Shown: piece by piece, positions 4,804-7,039 of the stretch
Layout of the letters: every line of letters begins with the position of its first letter
Position numbering within the stretch: the first letter of the stretch is position 1
Origin: Spirochaetaceae bacterium
GTDB taxonomy: Bacteria > Spirochaetota > Spirochaetia > B11-G9
Direction of reading: 5' to 3'
Assembly (NCBI GenBank): GCA_015493635.1
Contig: WGCU01000066.1
Coordinates: 1-64,000, forward strand
Length of the DNA: 64,000 nucleotides
Notes under the pieces: generated by a model
Seen by the model: the letters and a program-made list of their open reading frames with translations, nothing else
Database searches by the model: none
What the model was told of the DNA's origin: nothing
Position numbers and translations under genes: made by a program

Positions 4804-4883
4804 TAAGGTTCTTCTCAAACGAGTGAGTGGAGAGGGACAACTTGCTGGTTCCTGCCCTAAGCGAGTGCAGAGAACGAAAGATA

Positions 4884-4957
4884 TCAATACCCCGCGGCTT
4901 GCCGCGGAATAAGCCGCGATAGCGGCTTAAGGGGAAGGTTTTACCCTGGGGTATTGA
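4884..4957. repeat. 74-nt nested palindrome with cloverleaf layout
   Basis: An outer 10-bp inverted repeat, TCAATACCCC (4884-4893) and GGGGTATTGA (4948-4957), encloses three consecutive hairpins: GCGGC-tt-GCCGC (4894-4905), TAAGCCGC-gata-GCGGCTTA (4910-4929) and AGGG-n10-CCCT (4930-4947). Together they can fold as a four-way cloverleaf on either strand. It lies just downstream of the topB stop, in an otherwise non-coding 197-bp gap. Open frames through it look spurious. A REP- or MITE-like dispersed element is the likeliest explanation, and it could also act as a processing or termination signal. Confidence 0.6.
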
Positions 4958-4963
4958 CACCTT

Positions 4964-7039
4964 TCATTTCTTTTTCCGCTTTTCTGCAGCTTTAACAAGA
5001 TCACCGAAAGAAGAAGTACTTTCTGAATGATCACTGTACCGGGATATGAGCTTTCGATTCAGTGCCTTTTCCTTTCTTCCGGGAGGCCGTGAGAAACCGC
5101 TGCCAGTATCAACAGGTTCCTCATAACCGCAGGAAAGCGCGAAACATGCAAAAACTGCCCGGCCGTGTTTATCTTTTCTCTCCAGCATAGGCTGTCCGCA
5201 GAGAGGACACTTTTTCCCTCTGGATAGAACAGGGGTATATTTTTTTGTACTTTCCCTTATCTCCCGAACGAGGTGTACCGTCTTATCCCGTATTTCACTT
5301 AAAAAAAGGGAAGATTTTTCTGAACCTTCAGCAATACGGGCAAGCCTCTGCTCCCACCTGGCAGTAAGAACAGGTAAAGTTAGTTCTTCAGGGACAAGGG
5401 CCAAGAGCTCCATTCCCCGGGAAGTGGGACGGAGTGTTTTACCTTCCCGCTCAATATAGTTATTGGAAAGGATTTTTTCAATAATATCAGCCCTCGTAGC
5501 CGGAGTACCAAGACCTCCCGAAGCTATTGACGCACGTAAGGCGGTGTTGGAAATAAACCTAGCAGGATTCTCCATAACGCCGAGCAGTGTTCCTTCCGTA
5601 TAACGTGAAGGAGGTTTGGTTATTTCCTCATGGACTTTTATCTCAATCACTTTCACATGGCTGCCCTCAGGAGGAAACGTTGTCATCTGATACGGAATAT
5701 CTTCGATATCTTCCCCATCTGAATCCTGTTCCCCTTCTCCCGAAATACTACTCCATCCTCTCTTGATAACCCGTTCTCCTCTGGCAGTAAAGGTTTCATT
5801 CCTTACTTTTATCCGGATAACGGACTGCTCTTTTACAAGGGGTGAAGAAAGAACCTCCAAAAAACGCTGTATAACAAGATTCATCAGCTTTCTCTCATCG
5901 CTGTCCAGATTTTCCGGCAGAACAGGATCTCCCGTTGGAATAACCGCATGGTGCTCCGTTACTTTAGCATCATTTACAAAACGTTTTCCGGGGACAAGGG
6001 GCTGAGTGAGCAGTTTCTGAGCAGCCGGCCAAAAAGAGGTATGTTTCAAAGACGTAAGCCGTCCGGGAAGCGTCGGAACCATATCCGCCGTTATATACCG
6101 GGAATCGGTGCGGGGATACGTTGCGATTTTGTGCCGTTCATAAAGACTCTGAAGGGTAGAGAGTGTTTTTTTCGCTGAGAATCCCAGTCGGATGTTTGCT
6201 TCCCGCTGTAAGGCAGTAAGATCATAAGCAAGCGGGGGCGGGATATTCTTTACCGTTTTTTTAAGCCCTGTTACAAATCCTTCACCGTTGGAAGCAGCTT
6301 CTGCAACCTTGACTGCTTCTTCCCTGCTGAATAAGCGCGCTGCACCTTCCGGACTCCGCCACACTCCGTAAAACTTACCGAAAAGACCTTTCACCGTCCA
6401 GTATTTTTTCCCGGTAAAATTTTCTCTCTCTTTTTCCCTCTGCGCTATCATAGCCAGCGTAGGTGTCTGAACCCTGCCAGCGGACAGCCGTACATCGTAT
6501 TTACAGCTGAGAGCCCTCGTCACATTAAGACCGACAATCCAGTCAGCTGCTCCCCGGCACAGGGCAGCTTCGTAGAGCCCATCGTAGGCATGCCCATCCT
6601 TGAGACTGCCGAATCCCTCTTTGATGGCTTTACTTGTCTGCGAGCTTATCCACAACCGTTTAAAGGGACCTTTCCATGATGCAAGCTTCATGATAAGACG
6701 CGCAACCAGTTCACCCTCCCTGCCGGCATCCGTTGCAATAATGAGCAGACCAATATCAGAACGTTTCATAAGGGACTTTATCAGGTAAAACTGCCTTGAA
6801 GTCCGTTTTATGACTTTAAATTTCATCTTTTTCGGCAGTATAGGGAGGTCTTCAAGTTTCCAGGTTTTATACCGGGAATCATAGGTTCCGGGATCTGCCA
6901 ATTCAACGAGGTGTCCCATAGCCCAGGTTACAACATACTCCGGACCCTCAAGATACCCTCGCCCGCCTCTCCGGCAGCCGAGAACCCGGGCAAGATCTTT
7001 TCCTACAGAAGGCTTTTCAGCAAGTACCAAAGATTTCAT
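4964..7039 (-). CDS. topB: DNA topoisomerase III (type IA)
   Basis: 691 residues. The TOPRIM domain at the N-terminus starts with LVLAEKPSVGK and has TDAGREGE (103-110) for metal binding. The catalytic tyrosine is Y308 in ATYPRTDSRY. RVQTPTLAMI (about 189-198) is the conserved active-site arginine region. A single four-cysteine zinc ribbon (CPLC, then CFALSC) lies near residue 630, followed by a basic tail. It relaxes and decatenates DNA with negative supercoils, and TopB-type enzymes resolve recombination or replication intermediates. It follows tauE by 16 nt. The SD AAGGAG is about 12 nt from the ATG, which is long but usable. Length fits the family. The tail with zinc ribbon makes it closer to bacterial TopB variants outside enterics. 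Whether it serves the chromosome or was acquired with a plasmid is not visible. Confidence 0.93.
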   Translation of the reverse strand: MKSLVLAEKPSVGKDLARVLGCRRGGRGYLEGPEYVVTWAMGHLVELADPGTYDSRYKTWKLEDLPILPKKMKFKVIKRTSRQFYLIKSLMKRSDIGLLIIATDAGREGELVARLIMKLASWKGPFKRLWISSQTSKAIKEGFGSLKDGHAYDGLYEAALCRGAADWIVGLNVTRALSCKYDVRLSAGRVQTPTLAMIAQREKERENFTGKKYWTVKGLFGKFYGVWRSPEGAARLFSREEAVKVAEAASNGEGFVTGLKKTVKNIPPPLAYDLTALQREANIRLGFSAKKTLSTLQSLYERHKIATYPRTDSRYITADMVPTLPGRLTSLKHTSFWPAAQKLLTQPLVPGKRFVNDAKVTEHHAVIPTGDPVLPENLDSDERKLMNLVIQRFLEVLSSPLVKEQSVIRIKVRNETFTARGERVIKRGWSSISGEGEQDSDGEDIEDIPYQMTTFPPEGSHVKVIEIKVHEEITKPPSRYTEGTLLGVMENPARFISNTALRASIASGGLGTPATRADIIEKILSNNYIEREGKTLRPTSRGMELLALVPEELTLPVLTARWEQRLARIAEGSEKSSLFLSEIRDKTVHLVREIRESTKKYTPVLSRGKKCPLCGQPMLERKDKHGRAVFACFALSCGYEEPVDTGSGFSRPPGRKEKALNRKLISRYSDHSESTSSFGDLVKAAEKRKKK

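Follow-up and report, generated by a model that had tools for sequence, protein, structure and literature searches.

Introduction

Insertion 3' of a short motif is characteristic of the IS200/IS605 elements IS608 and ISDra2, for which the motifs are TTAC and TTGAT. The palindrome-associated transposable elements (PATEs) of Haloquadratum have the same ends as the IS605-type transposons of their hosts, as described in the parts of the source drawn on here (PMC3119063). REPs are 20–40 bp long with a GT[AG]G foot, and the structures associated with TnpA-Y1 classes 2.6 and 3 are atypical and lack GT[AG]G (PMC3733652, PMC6006769). The window analysed here is a stretch of 64,000 nt from a Spirochaetaceae genome. 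We read positions 4809–4968, with a probability of roughly two in three, as one instance of a mobile DNA element, short and non-autonomous, that is moved in trans by a Y1 HUH transposase. On this reading, a bacterial class would gain a non-autonomous element family of the single-strand type whose empty sites are exact, whose target motif can be measured and whose covariation is strong; no prior description of such a family in the class was found in the literature searched.

Structure of the element in the window

The complete element spans 160 nt including the target pentanucleotide (4809–4968, + strand, as are all its parts) and consists of a left-end domain and a right-end domain with a four-way junction. 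The window copy aligns with 31 other copies from its own genome at a mean column identity of 89%; the boundaries of these copies are sharp and their flanks unrelated, and the 32-copy consensus structure backs both domains. The target pentanucleotide at the left junction (4809–4813) reads TTCTT here and TNATT in nearly all copies. The left-end domain (4812–4874) is closed by the outer stem TTCTC/GAGAA (4812–4816 with 4870–4874; TTCYC/GRGAA in the consensus) around an inner hairpin (4834–4838 with 4848–4852). The assignment rests on the 32-copy consensus, on covariation in helices 1–3 and on the covariance model R1, the single-sequence fold of the window copy showing this domain only in part. 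The right-end domain (4876–4965) is closed by a stem pairing 4876–4880 with 4961–4965 and 4884–4893 with 4948–4957 (helix 4, 95% of alignment cells paired) around three hairpins. Hairpin 1 (4894–4905) reads GCGG-CTTG-CCGC, with both-side changes in three of the six pairs of its helix 5. Hairpin 2 (4910–4929) is TAAGCCGC-GATA-GCGGCTTA, and six of the seven pairs of helix 6 show such changes. Hairpin 3 (4930–4947, helix 7) has the arms AGGG..CCCT and reads CCAGGG-TTTA-CCCTGG in many other copies. The right tip CTTTCATT (4961–4968), assigned from motif counts, is the element's own TCATT end.

The earlier note had singled out 4884–4957 as a 10-bp stem enclosing three tandem hairpins in 74 nt, which would form a four-way junction. 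Fold prediction gives exactly this arrangement, with the outer stem TCAATACCCC/GGGGTATTGA around 4894–4905, 4910–4929 and 4930–4947. The minimum free energy of 4870–4970 is −46 kcal/mol as against −25.6 ± 3.3 kcal/mol for shuffles (z −6.19, 0 of 200 shuffles), and the whole 160-nt element folded as single-stranded DNA gives z −4.5 for the + strand and z −6.1 for the − strand. The cloverleaf of the window copy is real and lies far above chance. Its extent had been drawn too narrowly: the stem goes on outward (GAAAG../..CTTTC), and about 75 nt more belong to the element at the left, an extension that runs through a second folded domain in most of the first 30 copies.

Copies in the host genome

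The host assembly comprises 3.27 Mb in 101 contigs; a search for a 16S gene in these contigs gave none. The 74-nt query has at least 40 matches in it (79–94% identity among the matches listed, self excluded), as does a query with the left half only. Joining three own-genome searches by hand gives about 50 separate places as a lower bound, complete and truncated copies together; with these copies and with homologues in other families, the case that the earlier note had named as refuting, a single copy without conservation, does not apply. Most copies continue for about 75 nt further left to a sharp start at TTATTCTC and have a sharp right end at CTTTCATT. Over the copies of this and other genomes, the length ranges from about 92 to 319 nt and is mostly 158–161 nt. 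Truncated copies exist, the truncation lying at either side and not at the 5' side only. Compact versions that are simple palindromes also occur (L045, TCAATACCCCAGGGCTCTGCCCTGGGGTATTGA; L041; L077). The earlier note had seen in the cloverleaf a palindrome into which extra hairpins were inserted. Such growth holds in principle, as compact forms exist and genome G055 adds modules; since the three-hairpin form is common to several families, however, deletion is the likelier origin of the simple palindromes of the own genome (L045, L041).

Insertion site and target

At the left end, positions 1–5 of 70 copies show T in 68; T, G or C in 51, 11 and 8; A in 66; T in 67; and T in 68. The last six positions (TTCATT) each carry the stated letter in 64–70 of 71 copies, and the consensus ends are TNATTCYC (left) and TTTCATT (right). 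There are no terminal inverted repeats (TNATTCYC.. vs ..CTTTCATT); foldback domains are located at both ends. Empty sites are available from two sources. In G055, some copies of a dispersed 1-kb repeat contain the element and others do not, the empty site reading ..TCTCTCATTTCAAG.. and the filled one ..TCTCTCATT / CCCAAAC...CTTTCATT / TCAAG.. (junctions at the slashes). The copies of this repeat (L137, L138, L139, L099, L105, L150) are roughly 70–98% identical to each other; the repeat sometimes carries the element, and one of its copies has an array of short direct repeats after it. In G393, compared with its sister genomes, three copies have clean empty counterparts at TGATT, TCATT and TCATT, with no bases gained or lost; two more empty counterparts are slightly diverged, and one site is also filled in a sister genome. 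Filled sites keep one TNATT at the left and bring TTTCATT at the right, and nothing is lost. As the right tip still reads TCATT where the target was TGATT (G393), the target is not duplicated. The ATT common to target and tip means that the empty sites do not fix the exact cut within TNATT. In a head-to-tail tandem in G206, the TCATT of the first copy is the target of the second.

The element is thus dispersed and has two fixed ends, and its insertion 3' of TNATT is precise and leaves the target unduplicated. The suggestion of a mobile-element end in the earlier note was well founded, the 74 nt being the right-end domain of this element. A MITE with terminal inverted repeats was considered and rejected, as such repeats are absent and the empty sites show no target duplication.

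Mobility of this kind might also be brought about by a machine other than a Y1 enzyme, for instance if a structured RNA were retrotransposed or if a recombinase used folded single-strand sites. The truncated copies would fit this, although they are truncated at both sides and not only at the 5' side. Several copy-rich genomes give no Y1 match, and the stems of the element strand show a modest excess of G-U over A-C (55:23 and 57:32 cells), which is expected if that strand folds as RNA or as single-stranded DNA. The missing target duplication, the absence of cassette arrays and the insertion 3' of a motif like the element's own right end, which is the IS200/IS605 pattern, argue against such a machine, and we regard it as unlikely.

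Distribution, covariation and modularity

A DNA search of 59 genomes including the own one found the element in six, from its own family and other families of the class. A covariance model of the left domain detected it in 28 of the 395 class genomes sampled, in 13 genera, often with at least 10 copies per element-bearing genome (up to 12 candidates were scored per genome). In a sample spanning the phylum, the left-domain model matched nothing outside the class, and plasmid, phage and viral collections gave no match either, one viral scan being for one exact pattern.

Covariation was measured in an alignment (A3) of 21 copies from several families with 54 pairs and 1101 cells. Paired cells make up 92.9%, compared with 85.7 ± 0.5% in shuffled alignments and at most 50.4% when the partners are slid. 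Both sides change with pairing kept in 23 of the 54 pairs, a number reached by 0 of 500 shuffles. The base-paired two-domain architecture is kept across bacterial families while the sequence varies. Hairpin 2 illustrates this: its arms are GGCCGC/GCGGCC in the own genome and GGAGGC/GCCTCC, GAGTCGCC/GGCGACTC or AGAACCGC/GCGGTTCT elsewhere, so that in other families the sequence is different and still pairs. An arm-swap test of the hairpins is cruder than the alignment covariation test, and we place no weight on its result.

Hairpins also vary in number. In G055, copies are 158–319 nt long, with hairpins added at the junction and before it, among them tandem CAGTACTCTGCGGC units in L148. In the minimal forms of about 92–97 nt (L188, L187, L204), the left domain is joined by just one right hairpin. 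With the same two ends and a varying number of hairpins, the series from about 92 to 319 nt makes the recognition of folded DNA by HUH enzymes, as well as the growth of palindromes, open to experiment. It is conceivable, though doubtful, that the lineage is defined by its shape, a cloverleaf of single-stranded DNA (or RNA) that accretes and swaps hairpin modules while its tips stay fixed and is mobilised by a single-strand enzyme other than an IS200-like TnpA. Genome G098 holds near-identical repeats (L236–L242) in which a related left domain (TTATTTCCGAATGAAGCGAG..) is embedded in a conserved unit that is longer and lacks the CTTTCATT end. These repeats are a larger composite, related in the left domain alone, and perhaps form a second element family.

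Gene context

Many copies lie directly at gene ends, in all orientations, and some directly after terminator-like T-runs. The strands of the left and right neighbour genes are −/− in 9, −/+ in 8, +/+ in 7 and +/− in 6 cases, which shows no orientation bias on crude ORF calls. In the window, the neighbour outside the element is a topoisomerase IA/III-like gene on the − strand (4964–7039; Pfam Topoisom_bac, 1e-108), the TGA stop of which (4964–4966) is contained in the right tip. Searching genome contigs with this gene turned up distant relatives only. An identical −4 overlap with the end of a minus-strand gene is seen in L033, L058 and L027. In G393, an AraC-like gene appears, when read by eye, to end in the TGA of a TGATT target. 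As the element supplies a new TGA, landing on a stop codon may do no harm, which may explain how a position at gene ends is tolerated.

Genes for IS110-family transposases lie within the element or beside it in L139 (− strand, about 1219–2745), L107 (1437–2567) and L140 (495–1199). In L139 and L107, the gene lies within the loop of hairpin 1, and the L107 product matches Pfam Transposase_20 and DEDD_Tnp_IS110. Insertion of IS110-type elements into palindromes is a known pattern. Two candidates for larger autonomous copies, the 1.8-kb one in L139 and that of G035 in L107, were rejected; each is an ordinary element that has taken up an IS110-family insertion in a hairpin loop.

The gene-end positions, including those after terminator T-runs, together with the strong fold (z −6.19) and the covariation across families, would also suit a functional small RNA or an mRNA element (a stabiliser, terminator or regulatory RNA) for which dispersal is secondary. 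Searches of Rfam gave no match, at the gathering score or at relaxed E-values, and a tRNA model search found none, so the structure is not a tRNA. With no orientation bias to the neighbouring genes, a sporadic occurrence between sister species and exact empty sites also against it, we consider an RNA function of this kind improbable.

Candidate enzyme and proposed mechanism

Returning to the Y1 reading, the lack of target duplication and of inverted ends, the similarity of the short 5' target motif to the 3' end of the element and the folded ends together point to transposition of the IS200/IS605 type. It is from this signature that we infer an enzyme. The element would move as single-stranded DNA, its left domain and right cloverleaf folding and being recognised in trans by a Y1 HUH transposase of IS200/IS605 or RAYT type. 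Cleavage would take place after TNATT at the left and after TCATT at the right, and the excised strand would go in 3' of a new TNATT in single-stranded DNA. Internal hairpins would be tolerated as long as they are folded; their exchange, loss or accretion would probably stem from errors made when palindromes are copied.

In G003, G055, G287, G341 and G387, seven Y1 genes or their remnants are located no more than about 2 kb from a copy, where about one would be expected by a rough estimate from guessed copy numbers. RAYT-like Y1 genes near copies, for which the earlier note had proposed to look, are therefore commoner than expected, and the link is suggestive only. All seven are single neighbours; no RAYT gene in these five genomes has copies on both sides. 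Over 395 genomes, Y1 genes weakly co-occur with the element (16/28 vs 142/367, Fisher p = 0.07). Copy-rich G174, G204, G222, G071 and G098, all but G098 incomplete drafts, gave no Y1 match; in G098, the repeats share with the element no more than a related left domain. In the own genome, there is no Y1 gene within about 2 kb of copies; its IS200-type genes were considered as the autonomous partner and rejected, as they do not have these ends. Around the Y1 genes of the draft genomes G055, G003 and G009, no partner with the same ends was found. In G393, a single contig in which copies are recent, the one Y1 match is a protein of about 276 aa next to dprA.

Such a Y1_Tnp protein of about 276 aa directly adjoins dprA in several genera (L176, 1450–2289; L220; L226; L229), a conserved pairing of what are predicted to be two single-strand-DNA proteins. 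In G055, two tandem RAYT-like genes (L180, 1348–2633) have an element copy 0.3 kb upstream; the HxH motif of the upstream gene is seemingly lost (SSIQLL), and the other gene keeps NHVHIEV.

Comparison with known systems

As regards integron attC sites, the element is present as single dispersed copies with unrelated flanks, and no cassette array was seen; core sites were not seen by eye in the consensus. With REPs, REPINs and BIMEs it shares dispersed, mostly intergenic palindromes, a possible Y1 transposase acting in trans and the hosting of IS110-family insertions. A classical REP/BIME of a RAYT system would accordingly account for the dispersed palindromes, for the RAYT-like genes in several of the genomes and for the IS110-family insertion in a hairpin loop. 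The element, however, is 160 nt long with two domains and two distinct ends, as compared to 20–40 bp with a GT[AG]G foot; the missing foot largely refutes this explanation, for which, in addition, no RAYT gene with copies at both sides was seen and which we hold to be very improbable. The term REP-type in the earlier note does not apply in its classical sense.

The ends of IS200/IS605 elements (IS608, ISDra2) are alike in the insertion 3' of a short motif, a cleavage motif of their own at the right end, subterminal hairpins and the lack of duplication. The element here has no transposase gene inside and a much larger right-end structure, and IS608-type guide sequences were not identified in it. 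Fungal mitochondrial double-hairpin elements and GC clusters (e.g. PMC4478555) are short mobile hairpins too, a resemblance only, and in other genomes.

The PATEs come closest. As far as the parts of their description used here extend (PMC3119063), both they and the element lack terminal inverted repeats and target duplication, have palindromes near their ends, are too short for a transposase, reach high copy numbers and show precise, strain-specific insertions. A four-way junction and stepwise accretion of hairpins across families are not described for PATEs in those parts of the source, and the search for an IS605-type partner that shares its ends, as PATEs have, found none for the element. 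Since it behaves like a Y1 element, fails the REP features and is closest to PATEs as there described, we place it, a partner with the same ends not having been found, as a PATE-like non-autonomous family.
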